Assembly: GCA_963969365.1 (NCBI GenBank)
Contig: OZ017758.1
Location: 930,001 to 994,000, forward strand
Reading direction: 5' to 3'
Origin: Asterochloris sp. CNOR1
Lineage: Eukaryota; Chlorophyta; Trebouxiophyceae; Trebouxiales; Trebouxiaceae
Length of the DNA stretch: 64,000 nt
The notes beneath the pieces are model-generated. The model was not told where the DNA came from. It did no database searches and saw nothing but the letters and a program-made list of their open reading frames with translations. Below, piece by piece: positions 3,701-24,265 of the stretch (the first letter of the stretch is position 1; the number at the start of each line of letters is the position of its first letter). A program made the position numbers and the translations under genes.

Positions 3701-4813
3701 GCACGCCTGCTGAGCCTGATGCACATGGGAGCAGGACTGAGGCACAGCAAGGGCTTTCTGGGTGTACAAGTCAGGAGGGACTGTGTGGCATCAGCGAAGT
3801 GTGAGGTTTGAATATCTCCCATTGCAGAGCTCAGAGACAAACATGATCATCATGTGCCAGCCATCCCCTGGGCTCACAAGTGCAGGTGTCATAACGCATG
3901 TGCTGCTGCGGCTGATGGACACTTGCATGCGCCAAAGTCAGCAGGGTCTCATGGCCCTGCTGCCAGCAGTCACCGGCCTCAAATGTAGAGCATCCCGGCC
4001 ATCCTGCTGCCCCTCCTTTATCCGCAGCAGCGAGGCAATGAGTGGTGCCAGGTAGGCCATGGTCTTGCCACTGCCGGTCTCTGCTGCCAGAACCACGCTC
4101 TCCCCGTTGCAGAGGGCAGGCAGTGCAAGCTCCTGCACAACGCAGGGCACCTTGGAGCTTTCCCCAAAGCTTCCCTGGGCAGCAGCTCGATTGAAGGTCA
4201 ACATGTATGGCATCTCTCTACACCAGAGCTGGCGCTCGCGATTCGTGCCAAAGTGTTGGCAGGTCCTCATCCCTGCTGCTGCTTTCTTCATGCAAAGCCA
4301 TGTCTCCCAGGCAGCGTCACCTTCTTTAGCATAGACCACATTGCTGCTCCTAGTATGGCATGCAGTGTCCAAGCACAATGAAGGACAGTCACAGAGCAAG
4401 CATAGGGGGCCTCTGCTGCTGCTGCAGGCCAGGGGTAATATCACCTGTACGGCAGCAGGCTGCTGGAAGCCGGCGGTTTGCAATGCCTGGACAACCTTGT
4501 CAGGCAGCCCCAGGCTCTGAAAAGTCACTGCCTGGGCTGCCCAGAAGTCGCTGCCAGGGCGCGCTGAGGCAGAGCCGTAGCCGTCAGCAGCTGCTCCTGC
4601 TGCAGCTGGGCTGGCTTCACATGCTCTTGCAGTGAAGAGAAACTCCTGGGCTGGGCCCGCAGCAGAGATACAATTTCCACGGAAAGCCGCCTTTGGCCGC
4701 CAATGGCAGAGGGAAGGCAACTGCTGAAGTGTGGGGGTTGAGATCCAGCCACTGTGCAGTGCAGACTGCATGCTGCTTGCTACAGATCTGGCCCCTGCCC
4801 TCAAGAACTGCAT
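780..4813 (-). CDS. DEAD-box ATP-dependent RNA helicase, probably organelle-targeted (RH22-like)
   Basis: This is a spliced gene of about eight exons. In order the motifs are: a Q-motif region (FQSLGLPDKVVQALQTAGF then P-x-A-x-V-Q); Walker A AAETGSGKT (exon about 3974-4132); motif Ib-like VVSTPAGL (about 3375-3630); motif II VDEAD (about 2900-2950); motif III in the variant form VAATLP (about 2050-2110); motif IV LVFAADVKAAKR (about 1590-1640); motif V VMVCTDAAARGIDIP (about 1185-1235); and motif VI HRIGRTARAG, split by an intron near 1010-1120. Together these cover both RecA folds, so an active RNA-dependent ATPase is expected. The first ATG in frame is at 4813, followed by about 75 residues poor in acids and rich in Ala, Ser and Arg, which suits an organelle transit peptide. 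The tail FSRNRSFRHTIKKYG recalls plant RH22, but that assignment is inference. The exact junction between the Walker A exon and the next exon is not resolved. Confidence 0.85.
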
Positions 4814-4860: not shown

Positions 4861-7800
4861 ATGGCGAAGCTCGGCAGGGCCGAGCTGCAGCACCTTGAGG
4901 AGCAGGAGCAAGTGCTGCTGCAAAACATCAACGCGGTAAATCAGAGGCTCTCAGCAGCTATGAACAGGTGTGGCCAGCATGTGGCAGTGAACATCCAGTT
5001 GGCAACATACCCACAATTTTGATAGCTGCAGGGGAGGCAGTAGTCGAACACACAGGGGCAGCAAGCCCAGCGTGCCTGCCCTCAAGCTGCCCAAACAGCA
5101 GGAGCCATATGCTGACCCTGGTGCCTCCAGTGCGCGGGTGGCAGCACCAACACAGGCAGCTTCTGATGGCTCTGCACTCCTTGTCAAGTCAGTAGTACAG
5201 GCCACTGGTTCAGGTGGGCTTTCTGCAGGCTATTCGGAATTATTGCTCTGGCTGCCTGAGCAACGCCGTTCATGTGCTTTTGCAGGCTGCAAATATGTGG
5301 TCGCCCTGCAGCCCAGCAAGCGCAGGGGTGCGCAGCTGCGCCAGCGTGACAGCTGGGTCAGCCGCAGCTATCGAGCCCACATGGCCAGTTCCTGTGTGCT
5401 GGAGCTGGCAGGCAGCTTGCACGCTGATGTCGTCCTCAAGGTCAGCCTGCAGTATGCAGCGCTGCTGGCTGCCTTCCTGGCTGGCAGCTCTGCAGTGCCT
5501 GCGCCAGGTTCAGCCATCAGTCCTTGATCTGCATGCAGCTTCTGCCACGCCACAGAGACAGCCTGGCAGCATGCAGTGTGTCCTCTGCCCCGGTCCCCAA
5601 TCAGCACCGCTTCTGCCGCAGTTGTTGCCTGCAGGCTTGCAGGTGACCCTCTCAGGCGTGACCACTTTGCTCACGCTGGTTCTAGGGGCTGCTGCTGCTT
5701 GCTGGGCTGCAGGTGACCTTCTCAGACGCAGCCTCCTCGCCGGCTCAGGTGCGCCTGGCCCATGCAGAAGTCGGGCGAGTGCAGTTTGCGGAGCTGGGAG
5801 TCATTCAGCTGCAGGCTGGTGTGCCTGGGCAGCTGCAGCACGTGCTGCGCCTGAGCGGCACCTGCGTGGGACGCCTGCTGAGCATCTGCTTCGAGGGCTC
5901 GCTGCAGCAGCCATCATCAGGTGAGGAAGCACCTGCCTAGGCGCCCTGCTGGGTACTCCAGACCATGTCAGGCTGCCGCTGCAATCACACACCAGCCCTG
6001 CCTGGTTGCATGTCCAGGCAAAAGCCGCACAATTGGAAGGGCACAGCCCATCTGTCTCAATTGAGGCTACATCTGCATGCAGTGGCATCGCGAGGTGCCT
6101 CAGCAGTGCAGCACCACTCTGCCAGCTGGTGCACACCCTCTGCCAGGGTACAGGCTGCCCAATTCAGCTCTGCATGCTGCCCGCCTGCCATGCAGGGATG
6201 CACAAGGTCATGAAGCTCTCTGTGGCAGGGCGGGTGCAGCCCGAGCCGCCAACACGGCCACCCTCCCGCGCCCGCCAGCTGTCAGCTCGCAATGCTCGGG
6301 AGGTGCAGGCGGAGGTAGCCCAGCGCCAGACAGCTGTGGCCACCCTGGCAGGCCACCTGGCTACGTCCAGGAGCTTTGCGCGGCATGTGGCCACGCTGCA
6401 GGCAGAGCGCAGCGCTGCCAGCCTGGCCGCAGAGGCCAGCTGTGCCTCGGTGGGCAGTGAGAGCGAGGCCAACGGGAGTGGCAGTGGGGGCAGCAGGGCC
6501 AAGCTGGCGGGGCAACAGGGCGGTGATGAGCACAGTAGGCTGGAGGTGGTTGGCTGTGGCCCGTGTGGGGGTGCCTGGGGCAGCAATGGTGCTCTGGAGG
6601 GCGGCACACTGGCAGCAGGGTCCACAGGCAGCGGCAGGATGGGACCAGGTGGTGCTGGTATCAGCCCAAGGCTGGCTGGGCGTCTCAGCAGCACCCCAGG
6701 GCCCAGGTATGCCATGGCCCCGGTGCCAGCCCCTGTCAGCCTGGCAGCACAGCAACCCGTCAGCTTTCAGGGCGCAGCCCGCGGCCCTCAAGGGAGCAGC
6801 ACACGCCGAGCATGCAACAGAGACGCCCACACCAGAGCTGCGCAAGTGGGCAGGGCTGAGCTCAGTAACCCCGTCCAGGCAGTTGCGTGGCATGACTCAG
6901 CAGCTGTGTCCCTGGACTCCTGCCAGGGCTCAAGGGGCTGCACAGGTGCCCAGTACAGCTCAGCAGACGGGAGCAGCGCTGACATGCCAGCTCAGATGCA
7001 GGGGCCTGTGATGGCCGCAGCAGACGCTGGCATCGAGCTGCAGTCGCCTGGCCTGGCCACCAGCCCTGCAGTGGAGAGGTGGGGCCGGAGAGCCTGCCCA
7101 CCAGCCTTGACTGGCCCTGCCTGGCCGGCTTGCTCTTGTGCAAGTGCCAGCAAGGCTAGTGCGCTGGCAGAGGGGCAAGAAGGGGAGTCCTGCAAGTTAG
7201 TTTGTGCATGAGACCCAATGTCATGCTGCCTGTGTGCAGGCTGAGCGACATATCAGCGTCAGCTGGGGGCAGCTGTGGGCCCGGCAGCCATGATGTCACC
7301 AGTGATGCATGCCAGCCTCTGCAGGTAATCGTTCGCACCCCGACTCTGGCGCAAGCCCATCTGCACATGTGTTATACATCTGCCGTCCAGCTCACTGTGG
7401 TCACCTCAACAAGCTGAGCATGCTTGGGGACTGCCTGCCAGCTCTCACAGCAGAGCCTGCTTGGTGCACTGCAGCCACCGCACCCTTCAGCAGCCGAGGC
7501 TTGCTGCCTGCTGTAGTCCACACAGCAGGGACTGCTTGGTCAGGAAGTTTGAGGCTGCCCTGTGCAGCTCCCACCTGCCATGAAGACTGCCTGCCATGCC
7601 TGTGTGACGACACGTTTGCTGAGAATATCTGCCACCCTCGTATGCAGCTGTCGGCTGCCATGGAGGCTGCAGCGGATGATGATGCCTGGGAAGACATGCT
7701 GCAGCAGCCTGCAGCAGCAGCACACTTTGGGCAGAGCTCTGTGGAGTGGGACCCAGAGACTCCCTCGCTGGACCCCAGCGGGATGCGTCAGCAGCAGTGG

Positions 7801-17837: not shown

Positions 17838-20800
17838 TTAAAGATCTCCTCCTGTGGCAGGCGGGGGGGTTCGCTCAGGAGCCGCCTGGGTCTGTTTCTG
17901 CTCATCCCTGGAAAGCTCTCCCCCCGATGGGAAGACCAGGTTACTGAGCGACCTGGTTGTATGCCAGTCATCCCCATCTCTGTCAGCCCCAGCGGGCAGG
18001 TTCACACTGGTGTCTTTCGAGGATTGGGGTGGGGGGGCCTCCTGGTCTGATGTATATCGCCTTAGGGCTTCGGCCGTAAGGTTGGATGAGTGAGCACCTG
18101 CAAGCCAATGAATGTCTCTGGGAAAGTGATGGATGAGCTGACAGACACACTGCGCACAGCTTAGGACATGTGCAACCAGGACAGATGCAGGCCTATTGAG
18201 AGTTACTTGCAGCCATAGGCATGAGGGCATATCAGGTGCGGTGAGGAGGACGCGGCATGCAAGCATGCAGAGCATACCTGAGGGCTGATGACCCTGGACT
18301 CAGTCAATATGCTAGTGGTTGAGAACTGAACTGCCTCAGCCATGCAGCCTTGCCGTCGTCTTGCATCCGCCAGGACACCTCTCAGCTTTGCAGGACCTTT
18401 GCATGGGACCCTGTGATGGTGGCCATGCAATAAGCTGCTGCAGCCATGTAACCTTGCCTTTGTGGTGCAGCTGCCAAGACATGCTGACCTAGAAGGTTTC
18501 TGGAGGAGGAGCCTGTTATGGTCATGGTGGACTGGGGGTTTTCCCCTCTGGGCCCATCGCTGGTGCCCCTCCGCGGTGGCCGCTGAGGGCTCGCCGCCAC
18601 CACGTCCGATAGGTTAGAGGTGCTGCGCTCACTGGGGGCGTCCTCATCATCGAAGTTCCACTTGGGCTGTTTCTCCTGGTCCTGCTGCTGCTGCTGAGTC
18701 TGGACAGGGGTGCTGGGCCAGGCGGAGCCGCTGCCACTGGCAGAGGCACGCTGCAGGTGCCTCACGGAGCGACGTCGCTGCTTGGGCGCCAGGGAGAGGG
18801 AGCTTTCATTGCCCGAGATTGAGGGCCACTTCTGCATTGTGCCAGCAGGCATGCCTGCAGCACAGCAGCCTGTTAAGCGGATTTTGCCCCCAAGAAGCTC
18901 CAACAATGAAGGGGCGCCTCAGTATGACGCTGTTTGAACGATGCCGTCGTTACGAAAGAGCCGCCTCACCGTGGTACCCTCAGCATGTCTGCAAAACAGC
19001 AGCCTCTTGGGAGTTCAGCGTTGTTTACAATCACAAAGCGGTGCCTATGCCTGCGCGCAATTACCGCTTCACACCAGGGGCAATGCAGTCTGCTGCATGC
19101 CTGCAGCATGGCAGGGAAGCAGTCTGTGTGACTGGAGCTCTGGATGCAAGACTGATTGGGCATCGGGCTCACTGGCATGCCTGCTGCAGCACAGCAGCGC
19201 ATTAGACAGAGCAGCACACTGGCTCAGGATAGCTGACTGCCTGCCCCCAGCCACACAGTCCCCAAGGACTGGCAGTGCATTGGAGCTAATGAGCACCAGC
19301 ATGTCCAGTCTGCGACTATTTAGGCAGAGCAATTTGAGAGCTTGGCTGACTGGTTGGCTGATGCCTCAGGCAACCCCATCTGACAGCCAAGGCCTGCAGC
19401 CCTGCCTGGCACCAAACAGGTGGGACCTTGCAAGCACAGAGGGTATCAACGCTCACCTGAAAGTGTGCCTGACTCCCCAGGCACCCCCACATCACTGCCA
19501 TTCTCCTCGGTGTCATGGAATCGCCTCCAGTCCACACGAGGGGCAAACCCAACCCCACTCCGCTCAGGAGCTTGGACAATGGTCACAAAGTGATGCCCCA
19601 CTTTGATGTCCTGGCTCACGCGATAAGCTCGCTGCCGTAGCGCAGGGCCCCCGGTGCTGTAGCTGGTCGCCTCGACCTGCAGGGCGGGACACTTGAGCTG
19701 GCATATGTTGCAGCGGTGCTTGCAGGCTGGAGGAGACAGTCGTCCAGCTGGCTGCCAACATTAGCCAGTGGTGCCCAGTCAGGCCTCTGCAGCCCACCAC
19801 ACAAACTCAAAGCCATGCAGAGCTGCATCTGGCATCAACATTCGCATGCTGCTCAGCGGGCTCTGCAGACCTCTACGGCAGAGCATTGGCAGCAACAGCA
19901 AGGCGGCGTTGCCCAGGTACCATACCTTCTGTGACCCAGCACAATGGTCACGCTTGTGCAGCCACTCCCAGTCCTGAGCCTGTTTGTGACGACAAGTCTA
20001 GACTCAGCCAGGGGAGGCACCCTGCCGTCAAGCAGCAGGCAAGCAACCAGAAAGCACCAGCAAAAGTAAGCTGCTCCTCAGTTTCCGACATGGCTGACCA
20101 CGACAACACTGCCGTGCACCAGGCAAAGCTGTGCAGTGCTGCATGGCGCCATACAGAACTCACCGTAACCACAATGTCAAACTCTGCATCCATCATCATA
20201 GAAGATGTGCCCTGCCGCCAGGATGCTAGGGGTGACTCATCTTCAATGACGTGCTCCAGAACCACAGGCATGCGCAGCAGGACCTGGCCGCTACATGAGA
20301 ATCCATCTGAGAATTTGAGGGCGTCGGACTGGCAGGGGATCAGCTCGCCCTCATTTGTCATGATGGGTTTCCACCTGCACATGGCCAGGGAGGTTCTGAA
20401 CATCCACTGCTGCAACACCTTGGCTGCCAGGGCATCAGCAGGTACGCTGCATGGCAGGCAGGATAGAGCTGGGAAGCAAGACATCCATCATGTACATGCA
20501 AGCCAGGCCACCTGATAGCGATGGGCGCCGCCTGGTAGCGATGGGTGCCACCTGATAGCAATGAGTGCAGAGTGCAGAATCAGGCAGCACTTCAGCAAGA
20601 GCTTCCAAGACGAGGCACCTGTACAGAACAGCCTTGACCTGGGCATGCATCATCTGGAGGCTGTAGGTATCACCAACCCTGCAAGCAGCGCAGCGGGCAG
20701 GATGAGCAGAGCCAGGTCTGGGACTTTGGCGTGGCCAGGCAGCTCTGAGAGATAAGATTGCTCAAAACCCAGCTGCAATTGCACAGCTTGTGGCCCCCAT

Positions 20801-23800
20801 TAGGGCAGGGACTGTCTGTACCTGATCATCAGCATGAGCTTGCCGTTCCGCGAGGTCAACACCATGCATTCGCTGAGCACTAGAGTATTTTCCTGCAGAA
20901 TGGGTGTGGGCACTGCACGCGGGCGCTGCTGAACAATCATCACTGAGCTGGGGCCAGGTGGTAGCATGGCCAGGTCTGTCTGAGGCTCAATTTCATGAAA
21001 TCTGCAGCCAGGAACACACTCTGTGGCCTGTACAAATGCTTGGCCAGGATTGACTGGGGCTCAATCGCCTCATTGCTGCAGTCATGAACAGGAAGCAGAT
21101 GCATGTTCAGCTTGGCAGGGGTTCAAGGAGCCAGTGTAGCAATCTGCTTGCTTGCTGTCAGCTGGCATGCTATTGAACGATGCTCTTGGAATCTGCTGGC
21201 ACAAAGTGTTGAAGCAGCAGCACTGTCAGGTCTAGCTGGGGCTCAATGGCCTGGAACCTGCAACTCAGCAAGGGTCCCAGTGCAGCATGCTTGGGTATGG
21301 CCAGTGCCTGCACAGACGCAACGAGCCTGGTGCCAGGAGCAGTGCACCATTTTGATTATGATGCTGCCAGGGGTTCACAAACATGAGGCCCACAGTGCAT
21401 GAAGGGTGCAGCTCCCCCAGCTGGAGAGCTGCATCTGTGCCTCTGGGCTGCCCTTTCTGGGCCAGCAGAGGCAGCGTCTGCAGCAGCTTTCAACCCCCAA
21501 GGTGGTGTGGTAAACCAGGCAGCACCTCAGTGCTGGAGCAGACAGAGCTGCAGTTTGTGACAATCATGATCCAGGGGTAAAGAACTGATGCCGGCTGGCC
21601 AGACGGCAAATATCTTACCACTGGCAAAAGCTGAGCTGGCAGGGGCAGTGCTGCAATGGCACCCAGCTCCAGAGGCAATTGATTGTATGTAAGCCTGCCA
21701 GATGGTGCCTGTTGTGCCACGGGGGAAGATCCTGGGCAGGAGCAGTGCTGTGTTTTAGTGGCACTCACCTCCAGAGGTCCACGATGTGGCGTGGCTGGCC
21801 ATGCGGCGCCCTCTTCACCACTGGGGCAAACACATAGCCCCAGTGGATCTCTGTGGGCAGGTAGGAGCGCCTGGACATGAACATGGCGCCACTCTCTGCC
21901 GTGCCCTCAAAGGTCACAACAATCTCGGCTTGCAGAGCCTGCAGCAAAAGCGTGAACCAAGTGAACCCCACATGTACTGGTTGCAGGACAGCACAGCTCT
22001 ATACTCACTGTAGAGAACAGCAGCAGCAAGCTGGGTACAGCCCATTGCCAGGGAGCGCTCGGATCCAGATAAGCTAGCAGGCGCCTGCACGGCTGGCCTC
22101 ACCTGCGCTGTCCTCCACCACAAAGGGCAGCAGCAGCATGCAGAGGGCAGGGTTGCGCTGCCACCTGGCCCTGCTCACCACCAGAGAGTCATGAGTGTGC
22201 CCATACAGTGGGCTCCTCTCGTCAATGGTGTGCTCCACCACAGTGGGCAGCAGCAGCATGCCGGCGATGCTGCCCAGTTCAATGGGCTCCACGCGCACAG
22301 GCAGGAACTCGCCCTCAGCAGTTCGGTACCCGGCCCAAGTGTACAGGTAGGCATTGACTGTCGGGGCAATCACCTGCAGGAGGCAGCTTTCTCTGGGTGG
22401 CTGCAGCCTCACAGACTGCACAAAGGCATGTGGCACCACCCTCTGCTGCACAAGCGAGGCTGTGGCTGCGCCAGACCCGGCAGGCGATTTAGGCAGCATC
22501 AGACAGACGGGGCAAAACCAGGTTCCAGATGTCTGAGCTTGGCTAGCTCATAAAGCCATCAAGAGCAGCAGCTGGTAGCTTGGGGAATTGGGCACCAGCA
22601 GAAGATGTGCTGGGCACCAGCAGCCCTGCTGCACCTGAGTCTGCCTGATGTCTGCCACCCTGAACATGAACTTCAGAATGCCATCCCGTCGCGCAATGAC
22701 AGCAGAGTCTGACAGGAAGACTGTGCGTCCGCGCTGCTTGGGGTGGCTGATGCGCGCAAAGATGATACCCAGCGTGACAGCATTCAGCAGCATGGCCCAG
22801 ATGCATTGAGCCATGACCAGCCAGGCTGAAATCCAGCACTCTTTGGGGCTCCTGGAGCCATATCCTGCAGAGCGGTGAGTGCCAGGTCAAATGTCACTGC
22901 ACAGATGGGCCACATGGGACCCAGAGCCCCTTGGGGTTCCGGGAGCCACAGCCTGCAGAGCAGTGGGTGCGCTGAATGCATACTTGAAGCTCCCAAAGCC
23001 GCACTGTGGTCCAGAACTCCTTGTACCTCCTGGAGCCAAACGTCAAGGCAAGCCAGGTCGCTTGTCTCACACGGTGCTGCTGTCACCAGAAGCAGTCACT
23101 GTGGTGCCCCAAGGAGGGCCACATGACCACCAACCAGCATGCAGCAGGCCTCACCAATGGTCTGCTGGGTCTCAGTGGCAAATAGCACCGCCGCTGAAAA
23201 GCTGTGAAGAGGGCTGACACAGTGGGGCTGAAACCTGCAGCCACAGCCAGCAGACATGAGGCTGTGGTGGCCAGTTGCTACATGCATGTGCTCGGCCTTT
23301 CTCCAGCCAGGGTCTGCTGGCAAGGGCACCTCTGCTGCTGCTGCCAGTCCCTGTGGCTGCTGTGCAGCTTGGCAAGCATATGATGTGCAGGGCTTACTTA
23401 TAGAGGATGTACCAAATGACAGCCCAGACTGTCCAGGACAGCACATAGACAGCGACCATGATGCACAGCCCCAGGCGCAGCTGCAGCTGGACACATGAGG
23501 TGAAGAAATCTGCAAGGCCACAGGCAAGTGTCAGGGCCAGGCCTCGAGAGCAATTTTTGTTGTGAAGTTGCAAAGCAGCACACTGAGGCAGAAGCTGTCA
23601 GCGCGCACAAGCAGCCTCAAGTGAAGGCGGGGCCAGGTCAAGACTCATTGACAAGCCTCCTTGACATAGCCTTGGCAGGCCTCCCTGGCAGGCTGCAGAG
23701 CAGGACAACAGTACACGCCATTGATCTGGGGCAGCATCAGCTTCAGGCAGGCAAGCACCTCGTTTCCAGATGTGGTGGATGAGAGCTCGCTTGGTGAAGT

Positions 23801-24265
23801 TCTTATACTGCACTCGCGACCTGCCGGCATGCCTGCAGTCACGGCGCACCATCGTGTTTGCAGTGCACAGGCTCACTGCCAGGGCTGTCAATGCTGGCAG
23901 GCTGCGCAACGCTACAGTAGATTGAAGGCTGCATCTGGACAGGGCGACAAGCTTCTTGCCTGCAGGCTGCACGGCATACTCACTTCCCCGTCTCCACCAG
24001 CGCAGCCTTGTGCTGCCTGTACCTTTGCCTCTGGTAAAACCCAGCTCCCCTGTCAGGGGTCCACAGACTGCAGCAGATTTGACGCTGGGTCCCGGCACAC
24101 CCAAAAAACTTGACGCATAGCTTTAGCGCCGGCAAAGAGATCAGACTACCTGTCATGGCGCTGCCAGGCAGGCTTCACAAGCCTGTCCAGATCGTCACTG
24201 GCATGTCGGGACTCAGACGGCGACCGGCCTTGTCCGTGATGCTGGGGCAGCAGAGGCTCAGTCAT
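17838..24265 (-). CDS. Inward-rectifier (Kir-type) potassium channel with duplicated cytoplasmic domain
   Basis: Fourteen exons join in phase to 781 residues: 24150-24265, 23984-24067, 23759-23820, 23398-23509, 23155-23234, 22635-22864, 22179-22373, 21769-21938, 20822-21001, 20619-20678, 20164-20374, 19457-19676, 18489-18854 and 17838-18097. M1 lies at about residues 98-124. The pore helix and filter read FATETQQTIGYG (Thr150 to Gly154). Glu146 and Arg156 match the Kir pore salt-bridge pair, and Cys130 and Cys161 match the conserved extracellular disulfide. M2 runs from about 163 to 186 and is followed by the ARISHPKQR linker. A first Kir C-terminal domain (about 187-350: FLSDSAVIARRDG, VVEHTIDERSPL, RRSYLPTEIHWGY) reads in frame into a second (about 375-555: LVLSECMVLTSRNGKL, VLEHVIEDESPL, VGHHFVTIVQAPE). 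A polar tail with a run of five Gln ends the protein. It should sit in a membrane as a tetramer and pass potassium. The start codon could lie further upstream. Confidence 0.88.
20960..21270 (-). repeat. In-phase copies of the Kir linker exon start inside its intron
   Basis: The real exon starts at 21001 and reads R-FHEIEPQTDLAML. A copy behind a CTGCAG at 21076-21081 reads S-NEAIEPQSILAK. Another, behind a TTGCAG at 21258-21263, reads R-FQAIEPQLDLTVL. All three share the phase set by the upstream donor and an ATTGAGCCYCAG core. Weaker traces lie near 21114-21160. Confidence 0.8.
22114..22261 (-). repeat. Copy of a Kir exon 7 segment inside the following intron
   Basis: Exon 7 encodes MLLLPTVVEH at 22234-22261. 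The intron after it holds a copy at 22114-22141 encoding MLLLPFVVED, followed by a GTGAGG donor-like site. The two 27-base cores differ at only about two positions. Confidence 0.85.
22833..23044 (-). repeat. Three degenerate copies of the Kir selectivity-filter exon edge
   Basis: The real exon edge covers 22833-22872. A copy at 22921-22960 matches it at 32 of 40 bases by my count and keeps the CTCTGCAG acceptor. A third, shorter copy starts at 23011 and lacks the acceptor. Spacing is about 88 to 90 bases. The second copy would encode TIG then CGSRNPKGLW in phase. Confidence 0.85.

Follow-up and report, generated by a model that had tools for sequence, protein, structure and literature searches.

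A Kir-type potassium channel gene on the minus strand of the window (the whole 64,000-nucleotide stretch of DNA analysed here) very probably encodes a single chain with two Kir C-terminal domains. One such domain (IRK_C) per subunit is usual in the Kir family, a count that we do not treat as defining; the window gene has two, as does a second Kir gene in the same genome. Because that second gene has the same layout, it is very unlikely that the two-domain gene model is an accident. On its predicted sequence, the two-domain chain is a variant within the Kir family, known here from one genome and two genes.

The gene model comprises 14 exons with GT-AG borders (24265-17838, minus strand), which join in phase into a 779-residue Kir-type channel. 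The chain order is M1, the TIGYG filter, M2 and then two successive IRK_C domains, here called D1 and D2. By Pfam, D1 covers residues 191-354 of 779 (20983..22742, introns included) and D2 covers residues 379-556 (19503..20910, introns included). An earlier note on this DNA had read M1, a TIGYG pore, M2 and two Kir C-terminal domains, and Pfam together with the in-phase model places all of these landmarks where it had put them. It had also claimed one landmark order for both domains, which we find again: SDSAVI, EHTIDERSPL, VVT and RSY-LPTE-IHWGYVF in D1, and SECMVL, EHVIEDESPL, VVT and RAY-RVSQD-IKVGHHF in D2. The joint it proposed between them is likewise present: the ...IVDLW exon, whose last base is 21769, continues in frame at 21001 to read ...VDLWRFHEIEPQ. 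Its 781-residue model holds up as a two-domain chain; the length obtained here is 779 residues.

All exons lie on the minus strand. Exon 1 (24150..24265) carries the proposed start codon (MTEPLLPQ...) and the cytosolic N-terminus, and was placed because it is open in phase. Exon 2 (23984..24049) is 66 nt long and ends in ALVETGK; it is supported by a 66-nt stretch in the paralog (the second Kir gene) with the same end, ALVETG[K/H]HAG, for which the paralog acceptor was placed by eye. The acceptor at 24067 scores 7.4 vs 4.7 for the one at 24049, and exon 2 may start at the former rather than the latter. Exon 3 (23759..23832) is also N-terminal (HAGRSRVQY...WKR), while exon 4 (23398..23509) holds the M1 helix and exon 5 (23155..23234) the pore helix, with TIG of the filter as its last residues, both on the basis of the Pfam IRK match. 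The K+ selectivity filter TIGYG, which is also found in the paralog, spans exons 5 and 6. Exon 6 (22635..22864; Pfam IRK and IRK_C) supplies its YG, followed by M2, the C-linker (PKQR) and the first strands of D1. The middle of D1, including EHTIDERSPL, is in exon 7 (22179..22373; IRK_C exon match E 1.0e-4), and exon 8 (21769..21938; E 3.4e-8) runs from the VVT strand of D1 to IVDLW. Exon 9 (20822..21001) is the junction exon, with the last D1 strand (FHEIEP), the linker and the first D2 strand. D2 continues through exon 10 (20619..20678; VGDTYSLQ...) and exon 11 (20164..20374; EGELIP...EHVIEDESPL...VVT, IRK_C exon match E 1.5e-8), and it ends in exon 12 (19457..19676) with PRVDWRRFHDTEE. The C-terminal tail, S/Q/P/R-rich in exon 13 (18489..18854), runs on to the stop codon in exon 14 (17838..18097), and both of these exons were placed only on being open in phase.

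On the same strand, a CCCH zinc-finger match lies directly upstream (frame 25094-24864, best E 3.5e-7) and an AdoHcyase (S-adenosylhomocysteine hydrolase) match lies directly downstream (17188-16982, Pfam E 9.7e-18), so the Kir gene sits between two unrelated genes.

The Pfam and PDB searches of the window gene used a 13-exon version (757 residues). The IRK pore domain (PF01007) matches in one stretch (E 2.2e-22, 79.9 bits, cut-off 22.7), and IRK_C (PF17655) matches in two, which score 203.9 bits together and are each above the cut-off when run alone (pore plus D1, E 3.1e-34; D2 alone, E 1.2e-25). A chance resemblance of D2 to IRK_C is ruled out by the last of these values. By BLASTP, D1 and D2 are 34% identical to each other (E 4e-23). 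The best PDB matches of the whole chain are Kir3.2 and Kir2.1 (E about 1e-44), and those of D2 alone are Kir3.1, Kir3.2 and Kir2.1 (best E 3.7e-17, residues 26-196 of the 212 given). Pfam reports only IRK_C, IRK and Ion_trans_2 in the chain, with no RCK domain at E up to 0.1 and, IRK being confined to one stretch, no second pore domain of the two-pore-domain K+ channel type.

Animal Kir channels (Kir2, Kir3 and Kir6) share M1, TIGYG, M2 and an IRK_C domain with this chain, as well as a C-linker three residues longer than in two bacterial chains, but here a second IRK_C follows. The earlier note's view that a known Kir subunit carries a single domain of this kind is borne out by the solved structures: each of the 59 PDB sequences listed matches in one stretch, many of them being variants of the same few channels.

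The genome (56.4 Mb, 21 contigs) has 31 matches to the light-harvesting family PF00504, which among 14 control genomes matched in the cyanobacterium alone. Together with the introns, this points to a photosynthetic eukaryote, likely a green alga. Searching this genome with the IRK_C profile gives matches at two places, the window gene and C3:2904848-2906620 (5 matches, 8 candidates scored), and protein searches with D1 and D2 return the same two places (6 and 10 matches, 8 candidates each). No further IRK_C locus was present among the 8 candidates scored in each of these profile, D1 and D2 searches. As the searches work exon by exon, the match counts are lower bounds. A pore search of the genome returned the window gene only, and because it missed the known C3 pore, the genome may hold a third Kir gene. 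The C3 paralog model, which has hand-built exons and is without start and tail, consists of 14 in-phase exons with IRK once and IRK_C twice (D2 alone, E 5.8e-14). Over 511 and 518 residues, its protein shares 46% identity with that of the window gene.

The junction exon bears most directly on whether D1 and D2 form one chain. Exon 9 starts with FHEIEP, close to the FHQIEP with which the Synechocystis Kir ends, and FHxT stands at the matching place in Kir2.1, Kir2.2 and Kir3.1. From there the exon stays open as far as the first D2 strand (PILQENTLVLSE, which aligns with PKKRAETLMFSE of Kir3.1), and it therefore both completes D1 and opens D2. The paralog has a homologous junction exon (L006:6366-6554, DNA alignment score 62 against exon 9). 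On this evidence it is scarcely credible that the model has fused two genes, with D2 coming from an independent gene or from a damaged Kir copy next door. Such a reading could draw on intron 8, which at 767 nt is the longest of 13 introns, but it would have to divide an exon that holds the D1 end and the D2 start without interruption and that the paralog shares. There is also no second IRK pore match in the chain or nearby, and every phase fits. We therefore rejected a separate gene for D2 on the junction exon and the paralog.

A different objection is that D2 belongs to the chain but is the decaying remnant of an old duplication and has no role. The duplication does predate the split of the two genes, because in trees built from ten C-terminal domains (four of this genome, four of animals and two of bacteria; FastTree and IQ-TREE) the two D2s group together (support 0.994/100) and the two D1s group together (0.986/99), with D1 and D2 joined at 0.772/72; that it may have arisen within this lineage is less sure. 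D2 has also diverged more between the genes than D1 has (39% vs 62% identity), as a remnant would. However, neither gene model has a stop or frame break in D2, and the two D2s agree in 69 of 184 columns. Simple counting gives a dN/dS of 0.51/1.41 (about 0.36) for the pore part, 0.33/1.57 (about 0.21) for D1 and 0.70/2.25 (about 0.31) for D2, ratios that are rough because dS (1.4 to 2.3) is near saturation. The linker between D1 and D2 (24 codons; dN 1.13, dS 0.92) is without conservation between the genes and shows no constraint. As judged from the two gene models, D2 itself is under constraint, and we regard a remnant without a role as very improbable.

The residues kept and lost in each domain (Kir2.1 numbering throughout) suggest how the two copies may differ. 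Those reported for PIP2 sensitivity include K187, K188, R189, R218, K219 and R312 (excerpt of PMC3884141). According to the same excerpt, single changes at K182, K187 or K188 of Kir2.1 were without marked effect on PIP2 binding (PMC3884141). In both genes, D1 keeps K187, R189, R218 and R312, with Q at K188 and Q or R at K219 in the alignment, and the D1 region has R at K182 and H or L at K185 (counted along printed alignments). In both genes, D2 is without K187, K188, R218 and K219 and keeps R213, E299 and R312, while R189 is retained as R in one of the two D2s. The loss of K187 and K188 is therefore a weaker sign of lost lipid contact than it seems. D2 also departs at two positions that do not vary among the four animal Kirs compared, Y315 (to R or H) and W322 (to V or P), and may therefore be packed differently. 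The M2 position D172, which has a role in rectification, is N in the window gene (22635-22864) and D in the paralog (L006 4197-4426) in the alignments, so the two channels may rectify differently.

As an explanation of the whole, we lean towards a Kir subunit with a duplicated domain, in which D1 would provide standard lipid coupling and D2 a second regulatory ring. Its cytoplasmic domain would have doubled within the chain at a time before the two Kir genes known from this genome diverged. In the Kir family four subunits share one pore, and by analogy with the family four of these subunits would form one pore. D1, tied to M2 by a basic C-linker and retaining much of the lipid site, would couple lipid binding at the membrane face to that pore, and D2 would hang under D1 on a linker of about 24 residues, with no M2 of its own at the membrane. 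We propose the second-ring role because D2 has lost lipid-contact residues and kept E299 and R312: most likely it would form a second tetrameric ring beneath the first, extending the cytoplasmic pore, and would bias D1 on binding a cytosolic ligand or partner. Taken by itself, the stacking of D2 as a regulatory ring is a tentative reading of the sequence in which we have limited confidence. As the earlier note suggested, there would be eight domains per channel if the channel is a homotetramer, and D2 could be a second ligand-sensing layer below the pore.

D2 could instead lie off the axis while remaining part of the chain, i.e., on the flank of D1, between subunits, or interleaved in the RCK-like manner of BK gating rings, an arrangement that we consider possible but rather doubtful. 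It fits the loss of the C-linker basic residues and of some aromatic positions in both D2s, but sits poorly with the retention in both of E299, a residue lining the cytoplasmic pore of Kir channels. It is also favoured by the tandem RCK domains, which BK and TrkA arrange in different ways (excerpt of PMC4565861). Returning to the stacked ring, a more elaborate version assigns membrane lipid to the upper ring and the cytosol to the lower one, which would be freed from the membrane, and lets alternative acceptors, present in both genes, give a pore with or without the lower ring; we consider it distinctly improbable.

The idea of alternative acceptors comes from intron 8, where the beginning of exon 9 is present a second time further upstream (21170..21257, minus strand); read from exon 8, this copy gives RFQAIEPQLDLTVLLLQHFVPADSKSIVQ and then a stop, a one-domain end. 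Acceptors were scored with a matrix from 27 hand-called acceptors, leaving out the one being scored. Of the 56 AGs in intron 8, the best is the acceptor of this copy (21257) and the second best is the real one (21001); in the junction intron of the paralog, the real acceptor (6366) ranks first and that of an upstream copy (6269) second among 27 AGs. The window copy has a DNA similarity of 51 to exon 9 (maximum 35 in 2000 shuffles), and the paralog copy has 42 to its junction exon (maximum 37 in 500 shuffles). Both copies read in phase through a plausible last D1 strand (RFQAIEP in the window, EFHMTA in the paralog) to a stop. An F/Y-H/Q pair in that phase is rare after an AG: it follows 4 of 537 AGs across all introns of both genes, and two of those four are the copies. 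Background segments reach the score of the window copy in 4 of 6771 cases, all four being the paralog's own junction exon, and that of the paralog copy in 6 of 6828 cases, four being window exon 9 and two 10580-10451. The paralog junction exon also resembles window 10580-10451 (score 52), but as a gapped match without shared reading this was dropped. Intron 8 also holds a third stretch resembling IEPQ, at 21075. Aligned to exon 9 it reaches 37, with 30 the highest value in 300 shuffles; aligned to the 21257 copy it reaches 33, equal to the shuffle maximum, and its acceptor scores -0.9. Use of the 21257 copy as a cassette exon was rejected by eye, its two donor-like GTs breaking the frame.

Each gene might thus make two products, a one-domain Kir through 21257 and a two-domain Kir through 21001 in the case of the window gene, with mixed tetramers tuning the channel. 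The acceptor ranks, the resemblance to the junction exon in both genes and the rarity of the in-phase motif all favour this, but we judge it unlikely. Similarity between the upstream copies of the two genes is weak, being matched by 59 of 6779 background segments. Nor are partial copies of flanking exons confined to the junction introns: of 52 tests (26 introns, both sides), 7 reach the floor p of 0.0025, the two upstream copies among them. These decayed copies lie at 22964-22921 and 21268-21219 in the window and at 4509-4549, 6084-6133, 6257-6309, 6584-6623 and 7757-7811 in L006 (the paralog). Decoys that score above the real acceptor are present in 6 of 26 introns: besides window intron 8 and the intron with 22952, there are four further cases (window intron 1; paralog introns 4, 5 and 7). 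At 22952, where the beginning of pore exon 6 is copied, a strong acceptor outscores the real one yet would yield a dead product, TIGCGSRNPKGLWVPCGPSVQ and then a stop, with the filter reading TIGCG instead of TIGYG. For this reason the exon copies in introns may be relics, and decayed exon copies are possibly a general feature of this genome. Since partial exon copies and decoy acceptors occur in other introns, the short form is not our main reading, although the splice-site sequences make a regulated one-domain form possible. The earlier note had named a transcript ending between 21769 and 21001 as evidence that would count against its two-domain chain; the strong in-frame acceptor at 21257 could give such a transcript.

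Among more distant relatives, KirBac and cyanobacterial Kir channels have the same domain family, including the similar last strand of D1 in Synechocystis, but identity to two bacterial chains is 24-29% for D1 and 18-23% for D2, and the whole chain of the Synechocystis Kir has 312 residues. BK (Slo1) and TrkA are alike in carrying a duplicated cytoplasmic regulatory domain, tandem RCK, in one chain (excerpt of PMC4565861), and BK is the closest parallel to the proposed second ring, but RCK is unrelated to IRK_C and, as given above, unmatched here. Viral contigs yielded no relative to a search with the pore-to-D2 alignment (28 pattern stretches, 0 confirmed) or to one with D2 (55 stretches, 0 confirmed), and bacterial and archaeal genome contigs yielded no relative (66 stretches, 0 confirmed). 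Plasmids gave nine records with distant bacterial Kirs, all of them covering less than 80% of the query. Among the literature matches listed, in a search with most subscription journals outside it, no title or abstract opening describes a Kir with two C-terminal domains, and an excerpt of PMC7935092 contains nothing on one.

Having arisen before the paralogs split, the two-domain layout is old and has been retained in this lineage. In the current picture of Kir gating, a single cytoplasmic ring acts on a single pore, and a natural two-domain subunit would be a ready test of whether the cytoplasmic ring can be extended. It would also test whether one copy of the Kir domain can serve lipid sensing and the other cytosolic sensing, a division of the kind that tandem RCK domains brought to BK.
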